From Sporosarcina koreensis (GTDB lineage: Bacteria; Bacillota; Bacilli; Bacillales_A; Planococcaceae): a stretch of 64,000 nucleotides of DNA. Where the stretch lies: contig NZ_LQYA01000198.1 in assembly GCF_001531445.1 (NCBI RefSeq), forward strand, positions 82,891 through 146,890, given 5' to 3'. A model generated the notes under the pieces. It was given only the letters and a program-made list of their open reading frames with translations, made no database searches and had not been told where the DNA came from. Positions within the stretch are counted from its first letter, which is position 1, and each line of letters opens with the position of its first letter. Of the stretch, positions 359 through 10,766 are shown one piece after another. The translations under genes and the position numbers were made by a program.

Positions 359-428
359 CTGCCCCCTTCCCATTAAGTGTGCAAAACTTATGCACCTATT
401 ATGTCGATTTTCAAACACACCATTCGTT

Positions 429-460
429 TGCATATTTTTTTCATTTTTCTTTGTTATGCT
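429..460 (+). promoter_or_regulatory. Putative copper-responsive promoter of the multicopper oxidase gene
   Basis: TGCATATTTTTTTCAT (429-444) and a -10-like TATGCT (455-460) lie 38 bases before the multicopper oxidase start. The same 16 bases, with a TATGAT starting exactly 26 bases from the motif start, precede cueP at 2211-2242. No good -35 box sits 17 bases above the -10, so an activator or an overlapping operator is plausible. The regulator is not in the window; the copper link is inferred from the genes. Confidence 0.5.
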
Positions 461-497
461 ACATAAGAAATAATCAAGAGAAGAGGAGAAATATGTA

Positions 498-2006
498 ATG
501 GGAATAAAAATGAAGATGATCATATTGGCGATGAGTATATTGGTGATCAGCGGTTGTAGTAATTCGAATTCACAACCAGATGAGGAAATGGATCATTCCA
601 AGATGAATGATGAAGAGATGGATCATTCAATGATGGAAATGGATGAAGGTATGATGGAAGCTCATATGAGCCATGACGAGGTTGTCAGTTTAAACGACTC
701 AACCGGTGAAAACGAATTGAAAATCCCGTCCATGCTTGAACGTGACGATGAAGAAGGAATCGTCTACACTGTTCGGGCACAAAAAGGACAAACTGAAATA
801 TTTGATGGAATTGAAACGACTACGTATGGGTACAATGGATCGTTTTTAGGACCCATGCTTCGTCTTGAAGAAGGCGAAACGGTGAAGATTCGAACAATAA
901 ATGAACTTGACGAGAATACAACATTCCATTGGCATGGATTGGAAGTTGCGGCAGATGCAGATGGTGGACCGCATGATGTAATTAAGCCGGGGGAAGAAAG
1001 GATCATTGAATTTAAAGTTGGACAAGAAGCCGCAACATTATGGTTCCATCCTCATCCAGAAGGAAAAACCGCCGAACAGGTATATAATGGTCTTGCAGGA
1101 TTGATGTATATCGAAGATGAAAATGCAAAAATCCTTGGATTGCCAAGTAATTATGGGAAGAATGATATTCCTTTAATTTTTCAGGATAGATTATTTGATG
1201 ATAAAAAACAATTGAACTACAGTGCGGTAATGAACGATGACGGAACAATTGGGGATACTTTGCTGATCAATGGGACGCTCAATCCGAAATTGACTGTGAA
1301 CAAAGAGAAAGTTCGTCTCCGTTTATTAAATGGATCGAATGCAAGGAATTTCACATTTAAATTGAATACAGGAGATCCCTTTGTTCAAATTGCAACGGAT
1401 GGTGGTTTGTTGAATGAACCGGTTGTGTTAAATGAGGTGACGCTAACTCCTTCCGAGCGGGCGGAAATTGTTGTTGATTTTGCCCAGTTGAATACAGAAG
1501 ATGGCTTGGCAATAATAAATGAGGATGGGTCTATTCTTTTACCATTTGAAGTTTCTGATCAAAGCGGAGCGGTAAGCAGGCTTCCTGGAGAGATGAATGA
1601 TTTTTCATTGACAGACGAAGAGATGAACCTGCCGGTCACAAAGAAAGTGGAACTCTTTGGAATGATGGACATGGTAACGATAAATGGGAAGAAATTTGAC
1701 CCAGAACGAATTGATTTTACCCAACAGCAAGGGGTCACCGAAGTGTGGGAAATTTACAATAAACCCGACATGATGGGCGGAATGATTCATCCGTTCCACA
1801 TTCACGGCGCACAATTTAAAATCATTTCTAGAAACGGAGAAGCGCCACCGGAAAATGAACATGGATGGAAAGACAGTATCTCTGTCGAACCGGATGAGCG
1901 AGTAAAGATAGCTATACAATTTAAGCATAAGGGTGTGTATATGTTCCATTGCCACATTCTTGAACATGAAGACAATGGCATGATGGGGCAGGTGAAAGTC
2001 GAATAA
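498..2006 (+). CDS. Multicopper oxidase (CueO/laccase-like lipoprotein)
   Basis: 502 residues. The lipobox ISGC puts the lipid-bearing Cys at residue 20. It is followed by a Met/His-rich segment (many DHSKM and DHSMM-like clusters, residues 30-60) likely to bind copper. All four copper-site motifs are present: HWHG at 144-147, WFHPH at 182-186, HPFHIHG at 431-437, and HCHILEH at 484-490 with Met495 as the likely type 1 axial ligand. The family oxidises Cu(I) or phenols while reducing O2 to water and protects the envelope from copper. ATG 498 follows GAGGAG with a 9-nt gap. It is monocistronic with its own terminator and shares a promoter element with cueP. Confidence 0.93.
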   Translation: MGIKMKMIILAMSILVISGCSNSNSQPDEEMDHSKMNDEEMDHSMMEMDEGMMEAHMSHDEVVSLNDSTGENELKIPSMLERDDEEGIVYTVRAQKGQTEIFDGIETTTYGYNGSFLGPMLRLEEGETVKIRTINELDENTTFHWHGLEVAADADGGPHDVIKPGEERIIEFKVGQEAATLWFHPHPEGKTAEQVYNGLAGLMYIEDENAKILGLPSNYGKNDIPLIFQDRLFDDKKQLNYSAVMNDDGTIGDTLLINGTLNPKLTVNKEKVRLRLLNGSNARNFTFKLNTGDPFVQIATDGGLLNEPVVLNEVTLTPSERAEIVVDFAQLNTEDGLAIINEDGSILLPFEVSDQSGAVSRLPGEMNDFSLTDEEMNLPVTKKVELFGMMDMVTINGKKFDPERIDFTQQQGVTEVWEIYNKPDMMGGMIHPFHIHGAQFKIISRNGEAPPENEHGWKDSISVEPDERVKIAIQFKHKGVYMFHCHILEHEDNGMMGQVKVE

Positions 2007-2020
2007 ACCGCAAGCCTAAA

Positions 2021-2055
2021 AAACAGTCAGTGTGTTTTCACGCTGACTGTTTTAC
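2021..2055 (+). terminator. Strong terminator after the multicopper oxidase gene
   Basis: A 14-bp stem (2021-2034 with 2039-2052, one G-T pair) with a TTTT loop starts 14 bases after the stop; the right arm ends in TTT. Confidence 0.8.
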
Positions 2056-2210
2056 AATCAGCAATTATAATAATAAGTAAAATTGATATTGTCACCGATT
2101 TTGAGGGTAGGTCAAAACTAAGAAAAAGAAAAGAGAAGGAAGAGATTTGACGTGGAAAAAATGCAAATTTTAATCGGCAATTATGACGAATTTAAGGTAC
2201 AACTGTCGCA

Positions 2211-2242
2211 TGCATATTTTTTTCATATATTTTTGGTATGAT
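2211..2242 (+). promoter_or_regulatory. Putative copper-responsive promoter of cueP
   Basis: TGCATATTTTTTTCAT at 2211-2226 is identical to the element ahead of the multicopper oxidase gene. TATGAT (2237-2242) takes the place of its TATGCT, and an AAGAAATAA follows in both. As there, the -35 region is weak. Confidence 0.5.
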
Positions 2243-2308: not shown

Positions 2309-2833
2309 ATGATGAAAAAAAGTGTACTCATTGTATTCGGTTTATTGCTAAGCGTTGTGTTAGTCGCTTGCGGCAATGATTCGTCCGCTGGAAGTGAAAT
2401 CGAAGATATTAAAGGAAAGGTACATGAGTATAGCGTTGGAAGTTTTGCCGATGATGTAACAGCGTCCATTACATCTCATGAACTCATTGTTAAAGACAAA
2501 GGTAAAGAATCGACATATGACTTGCCGAATGATGAATTCTTCGTTTCCATTGCACCATTCATTACAACTACGCATCCTTGTGGAATCCACAGTTTAACAG
2601 GATGCCAAGGTGAATTAGTTCAAAAGGATTTCGACGTGTTTATTCAAGATGAAGAGGGCAACGTTGTGGTCGATGAAACGATGACCTCTTTAGAAAATGG
2701 ATTTATCGATTTATGGCTGCCGCGTGATAAGAATTTTCAAGTGAAAATTACACATGACGGGAAAACGGTTGACGCTAACATATCCACCTTTGAAGGCGAC
2801 AATACTTGTATTACAACGATGCAACTAACCTAG
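2309..2833 (+). CDS. cueP: CueP-family periplasmic/lipoprotein copper-binding protein
   Basis: 174 residues. A lipoprotein signal ends VACGN, giving a lipidated Cys21. The CueP hallmark cysteines are all present: HPCGIHSLTGC supplies Cys91 and Cys99, and the C-terminal NTCITTMQL supplies Cys167. In Salmonella, CueP binds copper in the periplasm and can pass it to superoxide dismutase; here it would be tethered outside the membrane. Either ATG 2309 or 2312 could start; AAGGAG lies 8 nt before 2309. It has its own terminator. Family recognition rests on the Cys motifs and length; its function in a Gram-positive is inferred. Confidence 0.85.
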   Translation: MMKKSVLIVFGLLLSVVLVACGNDSSAGSEIEDIKGKVHEYSVGSFADDVTASITSHELIVKDKGKESTYDLPNDEFFVSIAPFITTTHPCGIHSLTGCQGELVQKDFDVFIQDEEGNVVVDETMTSLENGFIDLWLPRDKNFQVKITHDGKTVDANISTFEGDNTCITTMQLT

Positions 2834-3021: not shown

Positions 3022-3348
3022 ATGAATACGAAATACGAAGAAACGTTTAAGGTGATTCTAGAATGCCTGAAGGAATGCAATACATGTTTCGATGCATGTT
3101 TGAAAGAAGAAGATGTTAAGATGATGGCTGAATGTATTCGGTTGGACCGGGAATGTGCCGATGCTTGTGCATTCGCTGCGCAAGCGATAACGCGTAATAG
3201 CCCATTCACGAATCAGATTTTAGAACTCTGTGCTGAAATCTGCGACCGTTGCGCTGAAGAGTGTGATAAGCATGACATGGATCATTGCAAACGCTGCGCT
3301 GATGCTTGCCGCAAATGCGCGGAAGCATGCCGTCAAGCAATAGCGTAA
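3022..3348 (+). CDS. Four-helix-bundle copper-storage protein (Csp/DUF326 type)
   Basis: 108 residues with 16 cysteines spaced CxxxC and CxxC along predicted amphipathic helices (for example ECLKECNTCFDAC near the start and HCKRCADACRKCAEAC near the end). This matches the Csp copper-storage bundles, which line the core with Cys thiolates to hold many Cu(I). There is no signal peptide, so it is probably cytosolic like Csp3. ATG 3022 is chosen over an in-frame ATG at 2998 because AGGAGG (3009-3014) sits 7 nt ahead of it. Its neighbours are all copper or envelope-metal genes. Confidence 0.88.
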   Translation: MNTKYEETFKVILECLKECNTCFDACLKEEDVKMMAECIRLDRECADACAFAAQAITRNSPFTNQILELCAEICDRCAEECDKHDMDHCKRCADACRKCAEACRQAIA

Positions 3349-3375
3349 ACGATACTGATAAAACTTCATTGGAGG

Positions 3376-3415
3376 AGCTATCCCGAGAAATGTAAGACGG
3401 TTTCTTGGGATAGTT
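3376..3415 (+). terminator. Inverted repeat after the Csp-like gene, possible terminator
   Basis: GCTATCCCGAGAAA and TTTCTTGGGATAGT form an imperfect stem 28 bases after the stop. No strong T run follows, so termination is uncertain. Confidence 0.45.
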
Positions 3416-3458
3416 TCATTTATAACTAATTTAGAAAAAACAGAGGTGTAGTAGACAA

Positions 3459-4022
3459 ATGAAGAAGCATGTATTTTTTCTAGGTCTCGCGATGGTTGTC
3501 GGTTTAAGTGGATGTGGGGACAAAACGACCAACGAAAATCGTACAGACGTCAATAATGAACCGCAACAAGAAGATATGGAAATGGAGATGAACCATTCCG
3601 GCTCAGGTGAAGTTCCTGCAAACTTGAAAGTGGCTGAAAATCCAACCTATGAGGTCGGAAGTAAAGCCATCATTGAAACTGATCATATGAAAGGGATGAA
3701 GGGTGCTGTTGCGACCATTGTGGGTGCTTATGATACGACAGCCTACGCTATTTCATATACTCCGGTAACTGGCAGTGAAAGAGTGGAAAATCATAAATGG
3801 GTAATCCAAGAAGAAATAAAGGACGCTGGTGAACAACAATTGGAGCCAGGCACGGAAGTCACCGTAGAAGCAGACCATATGAAAGGGATGAAAGGGGCAA
3901 CAGCAGAAATTGATTCAGCTGAAAAAACGACAGTTTACATGATTGACTATACGCCAACTACCGGCGGTGAAAAAGTAACAAACCATAAATGGGTAACAGA
4001 AGAAGAACTTTCAGCTAACTAA
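3459..4022 (+). CDS. ydhK: YdhK-family (DUF1541) lipoprotein
   Basis: 187 residues. The signal peptide ends LSGC, giving a lipidated Cys19. A Met/His/Glu-rich linker (MEMEMNHSG) follows. Two DUF1541 repeats each start with the same DHMKGMKGA motif (Asp75 and Asp139) and contain an NHKWV segment. The family is secreted and often found beside copper genes; its biochemical role is not established, and metal binding by the Met/His linker is an inference. The start follows AGAGGTG. The gene ends 6 bases before an inverted-repeat element. Confidence 0.85.
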   Translation: MKKHVFFLGLAMVVGLSGCGDKTTNENRTDVNNEPQQEDMEMEMNHSGSGEVPANLKVAENPTYEVGSKAIIETDHMKGMKGAVATIVGAYDTTAYAISYTPVTGSERVENHKWVIQEEIKDAGEQQLEPGTEVTVEADHMKGMKGATAEIDSAEKTTVYMIDYTPTTGGEKVTNHKWVTEEELSAN

Positions 4023-6892: not shown

Positions 6893-6987
6893 TGATGCTG
6901 CTAATTAAGATTAGCCACGTTCATGAAACTTTCATAAACCATGTATATGCTGATCATTGAGCGTTCTTGTTAAGGGGGCCAGCAGCA

Positions 6988-7626
6988 ATGACAAGTGCAC
7001 AATTGTCCGTGGGTATTATCATTATCAGCTTGGGTGCGGGATTTCTTACTTACTACTTCCTAAGTGATGCAGCGAAAGAAAAAAAGAAGGATTATATGGG
7101 CGAACTATTGGGACAACTGATGAATTTCGTTATTTATATGTGGGTTGGAAAAATCGTTTTCAATCTTTCCGTTTTTCTCAAGGATCCCTTGTCAATATTA
7201 TCCTATCCAAGTAATTCAACTGCATTTTACGTAGCGGTTATCGCTAGCATCATAACGGTTACGATAAAGTCCGAAATGGGAAAAATTGATAGTATCCCAT
7301 TTCTTCACGTCTTTATCTTTGTCTTTTTAATTGCTTCGTTTGTGTATGAATTCATTCAAATTGTTTGGAACGGCAATACATACTCGTTGAATTACACAGC
7401 TTTACTTGCTGTGCTTATTATTCTTTTCGTCGTCGTACGTGATCGAATAACGGTCTATCGATTAAACATACTCATGTTCGTAAGTTGGTCGTTAGGTACG
7501 TTAGGAGTGGCTTTTAGGATGCCATTTACGATGGTATTCGGCTATACAATATCTCCAGGGTTTTTGGTTTTCTTTTTAGTCGCTTGTTTACTACTTGTTT
7601 TATATAAACGAAGGAAGGTGTCGTAA
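6988..7626 (+). CDS. Unrecognised integral membrane protein of the CcdA operon
   Basis: 212 residues from ATG 6988, which follows AAGGGGG by about 8 nt; a TTG at 6967 is possible but overlaps that ribosome site. There are about six hydrophobic segments, a KEKKK cluster near residue 25, and a basic C-terminus (YKRRKVS). There are no Cys pairs or catalytic motifs. I do not recognise the family. It is the first gene of an apparent operon with CcdA (adjacent), a thioredoxin-like protein and a two-component system, so a role in electron transfer across the membrane is possible but only inferred. Confidence 0.7.
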   Translation: MTSAQLSVGIIIISLGAGFLTYYFLSDAAKEKKKDYMGELLGQLMNFVIYMWVGKIVFNLSVFLKDPLSILSYPSNSTAFYVAVIASIITVTIKSEMGKIDSIPFLHVFIFVFLIASFVYEFIQIVWNGNTYSLNYTALLAVLIILFVVVRDRITVYRLNILMFVSWSLGTLGVAFRMPFTMVFGYTISPGFLVFFLVACLLLVLYKRRKVS

Positions 7627-8385
7627 TTGGGAGGAATTGAAACAGATACGATGTTAATCGTGGGGATGCTTCTGGCGGTAGGGGCGGGTGCTTTATCTTT
7701 TTTATCACCTTGTGTATTGCCTATTTTTCCTGCGTATTTATCGTACATCACGGGCATCAGTGTAAAAGAACTGCAGGGAAACCATGGTGTTACAATCCGT
7801 AGAAAGTTAGTAAGCCATTCTGTGTTCTTTTTGTTAGGCATCTCACTTGTTTTTATAAGTTTAGGTATCGGTGCTTCGTTTTTGGGGCAATGGATTCAAA
7901 CATTATTAATCGGTGATTCAGGATTGCTAATCCAACGGTTAGCCGGGATTTTTATTATTTTCATGGGGCTTTTTGTTGGTGGTTGGATCAATATCACAAT
8001 GTTAATGAAAGAAAAGCGTTTCCAATCCTCTAAACGACCTGTCGGGTACTTAGGTACTTTCTTTGTCGGAATGGGATTCGCTGCTGGATGGACGCCTTGC
8101 ATTGGCCCAATATTCGCCTCGATATTATTTTTGGCAGCAAGTAATCCAGGTCAAGGTATATTGTATACAGTTATGTATGTAATTGGATTTTCCTTGCCAT
8201 TCCTCATTTTGACATTTTTCCTCGGTTCAACCAAATGGATTGGTCGTCATAGTCAAGTGATTATGAAAACAGGCGCTATTATTATGATTCTTATGGGCAT
8301 TATTCTGCTTACTGGTCAAATGCCTCGTATCACAGAATTTCTACTCAAATTAGTTCAAGGCACTTGGTTCGAAAAATTAGGATGA
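7627..8385 (+). CDS. ccdA: CcdA-type cytochrome c biogenesis / thiol-disulfide membrane transporter
   Basis: 252 residues with six membrane segments. The two redox-active cysteines are in the family motifs LSPCVLP (Cys29) and GWTPCIGP (Cys158). The family carries reducing equivalents from cytosolic thioredoxin to outward-facing thiol proteins. TTG 7627 is used: it follows the stop of the previous gene directly, and AAGGAAGGTG is 7 nt upstream. Its stop overlaps an ATG of the next frame (ATGA at 8382). The likely partner is the thioredoxin-like protein encoded next. Confidence 0.92.
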   Translation: MGGIETDTMLIVGMLLAVGAGALSFLSPCVLPIFPAYLSYITGISVKELQGNHGVTIRRKLVSHSVFFLLGISLVFISLGIGASFLGQWIQTLLIGDSGLLIQRLAGIFIIFMGLFVGGWINITMLMKEKRFQSSKRPVGYLGTFFVGMGFAAGWTPCIGPIFASILFLAASNPGQGILYTVMYVIGFSLPFLILTFFLGSTKWIGRHSQVIMKTGAIIMILMGIILLTGQMPRITEFLLKLVQGTWFEKLG

Positions 8386-8402
8386 AAACGGGGGGAAGAT
8401 AC

Positions 8403-8969
8403 TTGAAAAAAGCAATACTTATTTTACTTGTAGTAGGAATGCTTGGTTGGAGTGTATATGAGTTTGTCATTTCATCTGAGGGAGGAATAAAAACCTCCGA
8501 ATATGAAAATGGTAATATCGGAGAAAAATCGGTTGAATCCGATGAAGTGGGAATTCGTAAAGGCCAATTAGCACCGGATTTTGAACTTAAGACATTAGAT
8601 GGTAAGACAATAAAGTTGTCAGATTACAAAGGGCAGCGAGTCATGCTGAATTTCTGGGCAACTTGGTGCCCGCCATGCCGTGCTGAAATGCCTGATATGC
8701 AAAAGTTTCAGGAAAAGAAGGATGTGCAAATTTTAGCTGTGAATTTATCCGAAACCGAATCAAACCCAGAGAGTGTTCAAAACTTTGTGGATGAATTGGG
8801 GCTGACATTGACAATACCTTTGGATGCCGATTCTGCTGTGTCAAACGAATACCAGGTTATGGCTTATCCTACGACCTATATGATTGACTCGAATGGCCGA
8901 ATTCAATTTATCATGTTGGGTGCGATGAATTATGATTTTATGGTGCAGCAGTTTGAAATGATGGAATAG
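8403..8969 (+). CDS. Membrane-anchored thioredoxin-like protein (TlpA/ResA family)
   Basis: 188 residues from TTG 8403. An N-terminal hydrophobic anchor (KKAILILLVVGMLGW) is followed by a short linker and a TlpA/ResA domain: GQLAPDFELKTLDG entry, FWATWCPPC active site (Cys89 and Cys92), and the cis-Pro segment AYPTTYM. It would reduce disulfides outside the membrane using electrons from CcdA. GGGGGAAG lies 6 nt before TTG 8403. ATG 8382, which overlaps the ccdA stop, is an alternative start adding seven residues. Confidence 0.9.
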   Translation: MKKAILILLVVGMLGWSVYEFVISSEGGIKTSEYENGNIGEKSVESDEVGIRKGQLAPDFELKTLDGKTIKLSDYKGQRVMLNFWATWCPPCRAEMPDMQKFQEKKDVQILAVNLSETESNPESVQNFVDELGLTLTIPLDADSAVSNEYQVMAYPTTYMIDSNGRIQFIMLGAMNYDFMVQQFEMME

Positions 8970-9004
8970 GCCCCCTGTGTAAAACAAGAATTGAGGTGAT
9001 TCAT

Positions 9005-9691
9005 ATGAAAACAACAATTATGGTTGTTGAAGATGATCGAATGATCCGAAATCTCATCCTCCTCTATTTAAAGAAAAGTGGATATGAAGCTGTGGAGGCG
9101 AGTGATGGAGAAGAAGCGAAATCGGTTTTCATAGAACGTAGTCCTTGTTTAATCATATTGGACCTCATGCTTCCAAAGGTTAGCGGTGAAGAGTTTTATA
9201 CTTGGATTCGCGAGCGAAAGCATAATGAAGTTTCAGTGATTATGCTTTCAGCAAAAGCACGAATTGAAGATCGGATATCCGGTTTGAAGTTAGGGGCAGA
9301 TGCCTACGTAACAAAGCCGTTTGATCCTAATGAACTTATTGCCCAAGTTGAAGCTGTGCTTCGGCGTACTGGACAGTTTTGTCAAAAAATTGTTTATGAT
9401 GGGTTATGTATCATGCCAAGAAAAGGGGAAGTCTTACTTCACGGTGAAAATGTAAAGCTAACTAAATTTGAATTTAACCTACTGCATTACTTTATGCAAA
9501 ATCCAGACATCGTACTATCACGTGAGCAGCTTATTTGTAAGATTCACCCTAATATGGAGAGTGATGTGATGGATCGCACCATTGATGCTCATATTAAAAA
9601 ACTTCGTGAAAAGATTGAAGAGCATCCATCGAAACCAAAACGTGTCCAAACGGTTAGGGGAATGGGGTATAAGTTTGTCTCGCGTCTATAA
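9005..9691 (+). CDS. OmpR/PhoB-family response regulator
   Basis: 228 residues. The receiver domain has the acidic pair Asp10-Asp11, the phospho-acceptor Asp53 in LDLMLP, and the KPF lysine near residue 102. The C-terminal winged helix ends TVRGMGYKF, typical of the OmpR group. ATG 9005 follows GAGGTGA. It overlaps the start of the histidine kinase gene and follows the thioredoxin gene by 35 bases, so the pair may sense envelope redox or thiol stress; that signal is inferred from context only. Confidence 0.93.
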   Translation: MKTTIMVVEDDRMIRNLILLYLKKSGYEAVEASDGEEAKSVFIERSPCLIILDLMLPKVSGEEFYTWIRERKHNEVSVIMLSAKARIEDRISGLKLGADAYVTKPFDPNELIAQVEAVLRRTGQFCQKIVYDGLCIMPRKGEVLLHGENVKLTKFEFNLLHYFMQNPDIVLSREQLICKIHPNMESDVMDRTIDAHIKKLREKIEEHPSKPKRVQTVRGMGYKFVSRL

Positions 9692-10766
9692 TTTTTTGAA
9701 CCGAATTGTACCAACTGGATTTTTATGGCGTTTAAGTTTTTTAAATGTTTCGGTCATTGTGATGGTAACTGCCATAAGTGGTTGGGCTATTTATAGCGCT
9801 GCCTGCTTTTTAGCAGCGGATGTAGGAGGCTTGGATACACCGCGGCAACAACAATTTAATAGTATCCTTCTTAATTACTTATGGATTTTAATGATTGTAG
9901 CTGCCATTATTGGAAGCGCTATTCACTTCTATATTATCAAACGCTTTATTAAACCGATCCGAGGGTTAATTCAATCTACTAAAGAGTTGAAGCTGGGTCG
10001 TTATCCGGAACCAGTAAAAGTATATAAAAATGACGAGATTGGTCAATTGGCATTACATTATAATGGGCTTATTACACAGCTGCAAATGAATGAACAACAT
10101 CGGAATAGGCTCGTTTCTGACATATCGCATGAAATAAGAACGCCGTTATCGAATTTAAACGGTTATTTACAAGCATTGAAAGATGGAGATATAGCAGGGG
10201 ATAAAGCAATTTTTGCATCCCTATATCAGGAATCAAATCGATTGACGCAAATGATTGAACAACTTGAGCAATTAAAGGAATGGGATTACCTATCGACTCA
10301 ATCAATGGTCGAAAAAGAAGCATGTGAAATCGAGCCTTTACTGCATCAATGTGCTGCCATGTTTGCGAGGACTTTGGAACAAAAGAATATTCCTTTACTA
10401 GTAGAGATTGAATCATGCAACATTGATCTTCACGGCACGGGCATACAACAAGTAATTAGTAATTTGTTGGAAAATTCTATTCTCTATTATGAGGGAAAAG
10501 GCCCCATTGTAGTGGCAGGGAAGAAGGAAGGAAAGGATTACCGTATTTCGGTTACTGGTCCAAGTATGCCAATACCAGAAGTAGAGAGAGAAAATATATT
10601 TAAACGATTTTACCGTCTTGATTCTTCCCGAAGCCGTATGACTGGAGGTTCAGGATTAGGACTTGCGATTTCAAAGGAGATTATCGAGCGTCATCATCAA
10701 GGCGAGATCGGAGTTAGTACGACGAGTACGAGTAATACTTTTTGGATAGTATTACCTGGGCAATGA
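9675..10766 (+). CDS. Sensor histidine kinase (HAMP-type, BaeS-like)
   Basis: About 363 residues from TTG 9675, which overlaps the regulator gene by 17 bases; the start is uncertain because no strong ribosome site is visible and the frame stays open further upstream. Order: membrane segment, short external loop (AADVGGLDTPRQQQF), second membrane segment, HAMP linker (IKPIRGLIQSTKELKLGRY), HisKA with His152 in SHEIRTPLSN, N-box SNLLENSILYY, and the ATP lid with GGSGLGLAI. The external loop is small, so the stimulus is likely sensed in or near the membrane. Partner of the preceding regulator. Confidence 0.9.
   Translation: MSRVYNFLNRIVPTGFLWRLSFLNVSVIVMVTAISGWAIYSAACFLAADVGGLDTPRQQQFNSILLNYLWILMIVAAIIGSAIHFYIIKRFIKPIRGLIQSTKELKLGRYPEPVKVYKNDEIGQLALHYNGLITQLQMNEQHRNRLVSDISHEIRTPLSNLNGYLQALKDGDIAGDKAIFASLYQESNRLTQMIEQLEQLKEWDYLSTQSMVEKEACEIEPLLHQCAAMFARTLEQKNIPLLVEIESCNIDLHGTGIQQVISNLLENSILYYEGKGPIVVAGKKEGKDYRISVTGPSMPIPEVERENIFKRFYRLDSSRSRMTGGSGLGLAISKEIIERHHQGEIGVSTTSTSNTFWIVLPGQ

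Follow-up and report, generated by a model that had tools for sequence, protein, structure and literature searches.

In bacteria resembling Bacillus, copper control is usually described in terms of repressors acting in the cytoplasm, CsoR and CopY among them, and the operator of the latter, the cop box, has the consensus TACAnnTGTA (excerpts of PMC10141476). CopRS of C. glutamicum is a different kind of system. Its genes adjoin those for the multicopper oxidase CopO, the thioredoxin-like protein TlpA, and CopB, and CopR binds a perfect direct repeat with an 11-bp period, TGAAGATTTgaTGAAGATTT (PMC3140484). From this site, the only one in the genome, CopR switches on both the operon that encodes it and the one divergent to it, and it does so in response to copper (PMC3140484). 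A further regulator, YclJ of B. subtilis, has yngABC and ykcBC among its targets, and its regulon is raised at low oxygen; the YclJ sequences were determined by Ogura et al. in 2010, as related in PMC7961091.

Among the systems compared, the two-component system considered here (TCS-A, with the histidine kinase HK-A and the response regulator RR-A) appears to work most like C. glutamicum CopRS. The two share their partner genes (oxidase, tlpA, and copB), an 11-bp direct repeat, and a box before their own operon. They differ in the half-sites, which are TGCATA and TTCATA for TCS-A and TGAAGATTT for CopRS, in the placement of the TCS-A box at -35, in phylum, and in the number of sites, since the TCS-A box stands at several separate promoters whereas CopRS has a single one in its genome. 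CusRS, CopRS, and CzcRS of Gram-negative bacteria resemble TCS-A in having a membrane kinase with an extracytoplasmic sensor, an OmpR-type regulator, and associated metal genes. However, RR-A scores 153.3 bits against TIGR01387 (CusR/CopR/CzcR; cutoff, 279.2) and HK-A scores 161.8 bits against TIGR01386 (CusS/CopS/CzcS; cutoff, 292.55), both under the cutoff, and there is no Cus-type efflux complex among the neighboring genes that were read. The box of YclJ, which we take to be TTCATANTTTNTTCATANTTT, agrees with the element described below in almost all of its letters and in the 11-bp period, a comparison of boxes alone. In contrast with the TCS-A partners, copper genes are not named among the YclJ targets in the excerpts of PMC7961091.

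The window, by which we mean the whole 64-kb stretch of DNA analyzed, carries a multicopper oxidase gene followed by a cueP gene (Table 1). The oxidase is CueO-like, with 416.3 bits against NF008205, under the cutoff of 525. Genes for a DUF326 protein (Csp1-like, under the TIGR04401 cutoff) and a DUF1541 protein are found at 3025 to 4022, downstream of cueP. The preliminary description of this DNA proposed that both genes are preceded by one promoter element, a 16-mer followed at a fixed distance by TATGCT or TATGAT and then by AAGAAATAA, with weak -35 boxes. The 16-mer, TGCATATTTTTTTCAT, is indeed present without mismatch on the + strand at 429 to 444 and at 2211 to 2226. TATG starts 26 bp after its first base in both copies, which places the -10-like hexamers at 455 to 460 and 2237 to 2242. 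The fixed distance does not extend to AAGAAATAA, whose start differs between the copies (+36 versus +33) and which has 2 further occurrences in the window; it was rejected as a part of the operator based on this difference in spacing and on the lack of AAGAAATAA in HK-A promoters. With a 17-bp spacer from the -10, the sequence read at the -35 position of the first site is ATATTT, in keeping with a weak -35 box. The only exact copies of the 16-mer in the 4,340,200-base (4.34-Mb) assembly are the two in the window (429 and 2211). Allowing up to 2 mismatches gives 15 places in the whole assembly, and allowing up to 3 gives 7 in the window against 3.70 expected, which is unremarkable; it is the full 32-bp arrangement that goes beyond chance, as the matrix scores given below indicate.

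Within the shared element, TGCATA-N5-TTTCATA consists of two half-sites, TGCATA and TTCATA, 11 bp apart, and the pair ends about 10 bp before the -10, so that it covers the place of the absent -35. Activators of the OmpR/PhoB type are usually placed in this way, and the element is most likely to be read as an operator for one of them. Of the two modes of control proposed earlier, activation and derepression, activation fits better because the half-sites cover the missing -35. A MerR-type dyad with CATA...TATG arms, a reading made only by eye, was rejected because the conserved period is 11 bp. As had been proposed, the element is unlike the CopY operator: a TACAnnTGTA cop box is absent within 100 bp of either site, and one ACAnnTGT core without the flanking T and A is found at 2199, near the cueP site. 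Read by eye, the elements also seem unlike the palindromic operators of CsoR and CueR. The tandem array upstream of the oxidase box (Table 1) may represent possible further RR-A sites, and an array of the form TGCA-N7-TGCA-N7-TG[A/T]C is found in 9 of the 12 oxidase promoters checked.

Table 1. Features of the locus and of the two-component systems considered (window positions, or genome:contig:positions for genes outside the window)
Feature	Position	Strand	Remarks
Tandem array TGCA-N7-TGCA-N7-TGTC	380..405	+	11-bp spacing; upstream of oxidase box; possible further RR-A sites
Putative RR-A box and -10, oxidase promoter	429..460	+	TGCATA 429-434, TTTCAT 439-444, TATGCT 455-460; score 21.2
Multicopper oxidase lipoprotein gene	498..2006	+	Pfam Cu-oxidase_3, Cu-oxidase_2, Cu-oxidase
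Putative RR-A box and -10, cueP promoter	2211..2242	+	TGCATA 2211-2216, TTTCATA 2221-2227, TATGAT 2237-2242; score 25.1
cueP family copper-binding lipoprotein gene	2309..2833	+	PF21172; NF038094 over cutoff
Look-alike box TTCATGAAACTTTCAT-N10-TATGCT before TCS-B operon	6920..6951	+	RR-A matrix score -14.5
TCS-B response regulator (RR-B, OmpR family)	8996..9691	+	Rejected local candidate
TCS-B histidine kinase	9675..10766	+	
HK-A, histidine kinase of TCS-A	G000:C174:72098-73459		HAMP, HisKA, HATPase_c
RR-A, response regulator of TCS-A	G000:C174:73480-74157		PF00072 and PF00486

A search of the genome for the OmpR-type DNA-binding family gave 24 matches, of which 22 exceed the cutoff, and the regulators of TCS-A and of a second system, TCS-B, are near the element. 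The TCS-A operon is on the same contig as the oxidase, about 9 kb upstream of it and outside the window. Its HK-A and RR-A genes adjoin each other, and RR-A has a receiver domain and a winged-helix C-terminal domain. Next after RR-A are two DsbD/CcdA-like genes, resB, and a gene for cytochrome c assembly, and then the genes for a P-type ATPase and a cupredoxin-domain protein; the ATPase is a copper-translocating, copB-like one (TIGR01511, 633.7 against a cutoff of 397). Across genomes, the HK-RR pair has as neighbors the oxidase, a copB-like ATPase, or DUF1541-cueP, and in one genome (G041) it lies directly upstream of the oxidase. Based on the position of the box and on the genome comparisons that follow, we consider it likely that the element is the operator of RR-A and that TCS-A regulates the oxidase, cueP, the copB-like ATPase, tlpA, and its own operon. 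The earlier proposal, that the copper genes form a joint regulon with a single regulator, finds good support in the comparison; that proposal had left the regulator without a name, and TCS-A is now the candidate. In the mechanism that we infer from these sequences, HK-A would sense excess copper outside the membrane through conserved His and Met residues and would phosphorylate RR-A. RR-A would then bind the two half-sites, spaced by 11 bp, in place of a -35 and would bring the housekeeping RNA polymerase to the -10, which lies 10 bp farther downstream, switching on the multicopper oxidase, cueP, the copB-like P-type ATPase, tlpA, and the TCS-A operon itself.

The argument for copper as the signal comes from the sensor domain of HK-A. 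Residues H50, H65, M69, and M143 are invariant in all 31 kinase sensors aligned (that of G000, the genome of the window; 21 of the 46 other kinases in the genus; and 9 from other genera), and the corresponding H50, H65, M69, and M142 (L071 numbering) are invariant in the 11 sensors aligned for folding. The predicted model of the L071 sensor (mean pLDDT, 83.2) matches PDC/Cache-type sensors, with WalK among the best. It also matches CusS with silver (5ku5_A; Z, 9.5; rmsd, 3.4; 118 residues aligned), but at rank 34, among many other sensors that share this fold. A sequence search of the PDB with the sensor gave no convincing match (best E value, 0.14). The fold is uninformative with respect to the ligand, and the argument for copper is the conserved His/Met set. 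One could suppose instead that TCS-A is the regulator but responds to thiol-disulfide or redox stress in the envelope, with copper as one trigger, given the CcdA/DsbD-like, thioredoxin-like, and ResB/ResC-like genes on either side of the HK-RR operon and the general nature of the predicted sensor fold. We regard this as unlikely, in view of the four invariant His/Met residues, of the copper ATPase and cupredoxin gene that adjoin TCS-A, and of the fact that, besides those at HK-RR and on the tlpA side, the assigned box sites precede copper genes.

The box is also found before the TCS-A operon, and these sites allowed a prediction that is independent of the window. TGCA[T/C]A, sought in an interval of about 42 to 72 bp upstream of the kinase match, is present 51 to 62 bp before it in 45 of the 46 HK-A upstream regions of other genomes, and TATA[C/A]T follows at the same spacing as in the window in all 45. 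The one HK-A promoter without a box (G054) belongs to an HK-RR pair that follows, at 0.3 kb and on the same strand, an oxidase preceded by the box. A matrix was trained on these 45 sites, of which 33 are unique and none comes from the genome of the window. In the 64-kb window it ranks the cueP site first (25.1) and the oxidase site second (21.2), and no other site there scores above 2.5. In contrast, the maximum over both strands of 68 random Markov sequences of 64 kb (4.35 Mb) is 15.5, and 3 random positions reach 12, the threshold that we chose. In the stretch farther upstream (L199), the HK-A promoter has the highest score (43.0), and the second and third places are taken by a site some 40 bp ahead of the copB-like gene (15.8) and by one on the tlpA side (12.7). 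The box is thus present more weakly at copB and tlpA than at the HK-A promoter of this genome, and since the two lower scores are near the random maximum, these sites rest more on their position and on conservation in other genomes.

For comparison between genomes we used the pattern TGCATANNNTTTTCATA-N9-TATACT. In the genome of the window, up to 3 mismatches give 6 matches (those of HK-RR, oxidase, cueP, and copB and two judged to be chance) against 3 for the reversed control, so the weak sites of this genome are indistinguishable from chance by pattern alone. The csoR-copZ-copA locus of the same genome (G000:C293), where the motif was to be sought according to the preliminary description, carries no box (best score, -7.0); like the proposed regulon it comprises copper-related genes, but its repressor is of another family. 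A second CsoR-like repressor is encoded at L333 (G000:C137), which by reading lies beside rhodanese-like frames and is perhaps a persulfide (CstR-type) locus.

Across 68 genomes of the genus, including that of the window, RR-A and the oxidase occur together. RR-A is present in 42 genomes and the oxidase in 41; 39 have both, 3 only RR-A, 2 only the oxidase, and 24 neither (Fisher test, 5.5e-13, with related genomes treated as independent, as in all these tests). In one of the two oxidase-only genomes (G007) the match is partial and contains stops, and the other (G049) is 75% complete and carries a box scoring 22.6. At up to 2 mismatches, the element is found in 38 of the 42 genomes with RR-A versus 1 of the 26 without it (2.1e-13), and diverged forms were seen in the four RR-A genomes that have no match (G041, G047, G060, and G061).

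The pattern has 92 matches in the 68 genomes versus 4 for the reversed control. Most (77) could be assigned: 35 precede HK-RR, 32 precede the oxidase, and 10 are on the divergent tlpA side. The 15 others include the cueP site of the window and five sites before a CopB-like ATPase. One match (G063) is beside a cupredoxin gene, as in copB loci, with CopB not found in the 3 kb taken; one (G064) is 163 bp before an oxidase; one (G057:C209) is 36 bp from a contig end, which leaves its gene out of view; and one (G037:C6) precedes a fragment matching HK-A residues 1 to 53. The remaining five were judged to be chance. Two of these are in the genome of the window (G000:C5 and G000:C152), one inside an ABC-permease-like frame and one between asparaginase-like and permease-like frames as read from the ORFs; at the other three (G005, G013:C2, and G028:C44), none of the 13 proteins tried was found. 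With the HK-A-trained matrix, 35 of 46 oxidase promoters (250 bp before the match, that of the window included) score at least 12; 3 of the 49 oxidase matches were unscored, being at a contig start (G057:C78), a second fragment in G063, and the G007 fragment. Seven of the 11 oxidases under 12 lie behind HK-RR on the same strand (G001, G023, G024, G034, G041, and two in G047), and four copies have neither a box nor HK-RR before them (G057/L203, G021b, G027b, and G056b).

The association extends to 193 further genomes of the family, in which a close RR-A was defined by an E value of up to 1e-84, a cut set after the values had been seen. The pattern is present in 36 of the 44 genomes with a close RR-A versus 24 of the 149 others (1.1e-15, genomes again taken as independent), and 14 of these 24 are in one group (g8). 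Among the matches listed, a site no more than 3.5 kb upstream of the regulator gene and on the same strand was found in 27 of 34 genomes, the exceptions being G095, G096, G102, G122, G127, G137, and G144. In four of these 24 (G104, G107, G118, and G129), the match lies upstream of a more distant regulator with 52 to 54% identity, which suggests that the box predates the genus.

A box before a regulator gene is no proof that this regulator binds it, and an unlinked one-component activator or repressor might bind the element, with TCS-A merely a further target. We regard this as improbable, since the element and RR-A closely co-occur, the layout is that of a direct repeat with an 11-bp period, and RR-A repeatedly lies beside box-bearing genes, all of which favors binding by RR-A.

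TCS-B, which lies within the window, has a promoter that shares the layout of the oxidase and cueP boxes, and for this reason it was at first favored as the regulator of these two genes. TKCAT-N5-TTTCAT-N10-TATGMT matches three places in the genome without mismatch, and the third is the TCS-B promoter. However, TG had been widened to TK in the first half-site after this third site was seen, and at up to 3 mismatches the widened pattern is loose, with 148 places versus 46 for the reversed control. In the genus, 11 of 13 TCS-B promoters keep a different box, TTC[A/G]T[C/G]A-N4-TTCA[T/C]A, in which the first half-site differs, and these 11 include the promoters of all 6 TCS-B genomes without RR-A. 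RR-B is found in 13 of the 68 genomes and is associated with neither the oxidase (P = 0.80) nor the element (P = 0.89), and its promoter site scores far below zero with the RR-A matrix (Table 1). Because of the different conserved box and the lack of co-occurrence, TCS-B was rejected after the genus comparison, and control of the two genes by it is now very improbable. The look-alike box is probably TCS-B's own, outside the RR-A regulon. The TCS-B operon (6920 to 10766) encodes a membrane protein with no Pfam match, CcdA, a thioredoxin-like protein, the regulator, and the kinase, and its role is perhaps in thiol-disulfide stress of the envelope. Elsewhere in the genome, a one-mismatch match to a relaxed layout (TTCATGTTCCGTTCAT-N10-TATGAT; G000:C425:69433-69464) is located downstream of a further OmpR-type regulator, at a distance of about 1.4 kb.

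The cueP promoter of the window is a special case. Of 30 cueP matches in the genus, the 22 longer ones were scored (8 are fragments), and only that of the window has a box within 400 bp, so within the genus cueP membership in the regulon is local to this strain. For about 105 bp, the sequence upstream of this cueP is similar to the G055 oxidase promoter (score of 120, versus a maximum of 50 in 200 shuffles), a likeness which indicates that the cueP promoter probably arose by copying. This alignment could also be taken to mean that the two promoters of the window are alike only through copying, with conserved letters but no regulator, which is extremely unlikely, as this box is conserved before HK-RR, tlpA, and copB as well as in other genera, and copying accounts for the origin of the cueP site and not for conservation. 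The regulon is thereby suggested to extend by promoter copying, with an oxidase-type promoter at the cueP of this strain and no box at the other 21 of 22.

Links between cueP and the system are nevertheless found in other places. In six genomes (G030, G032, G062, G064, G065, and G066), cueP is beside HK-RR, behind DUF1541. In 80 named loci there are 21 matrix sites scoring at least 12, three of which are the oxidase promoters of L010 to L012. Outside the genus, a box starts no more than 150 bp from cueP at L025, L027, L040, L044, and L056, and L027 (Bacillus timonensis) has a box before both HK (30.5) and cueP (23.9). A different common element, approximately ATGAA-N3-TTTCGTGA as seen by eye, is present upstream of cueP at L018, L034, L035, L037, L038, and L041. 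It is followed by a TA.GGTAAAAT-like -10, is found in several genera besides this one, and may be the mark of a different regulator.

Searches of the open-licence literature in PMC turned up no account of the box or of the TCS-A system, which is weak evidence of absence; copper two-component systems as a kind are already known, and it is this lineage and its binding site that appear to be undescribed. We lean toward the view that TCS-A represents a lineage of its own among two-component systems that sense copper outside the cytoplasm, characterized by a PDC/Cache sensor in which a His-His-Met-Met set is invariant and by the operator TGCATA/TTCATA. Such a lineage would be widespread in the present family of the Bacillota, with related systems in Oceanobacillus, Gracilibacillus, Cytobacillus, and Bacillus, and would tie copper oxidation and storage to proteins of thiol-disulfide exchange and cytochrome c assembly, alongside CsoR and independently of it. 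If this is true, an extracytoplasmic copper sensor with a defined operator and few targets would explain how the genes for the extracytoplasmic oxidase and CueP are switched on, and it would yield testable predictions at the level of promoters, bases, and sensor residues.
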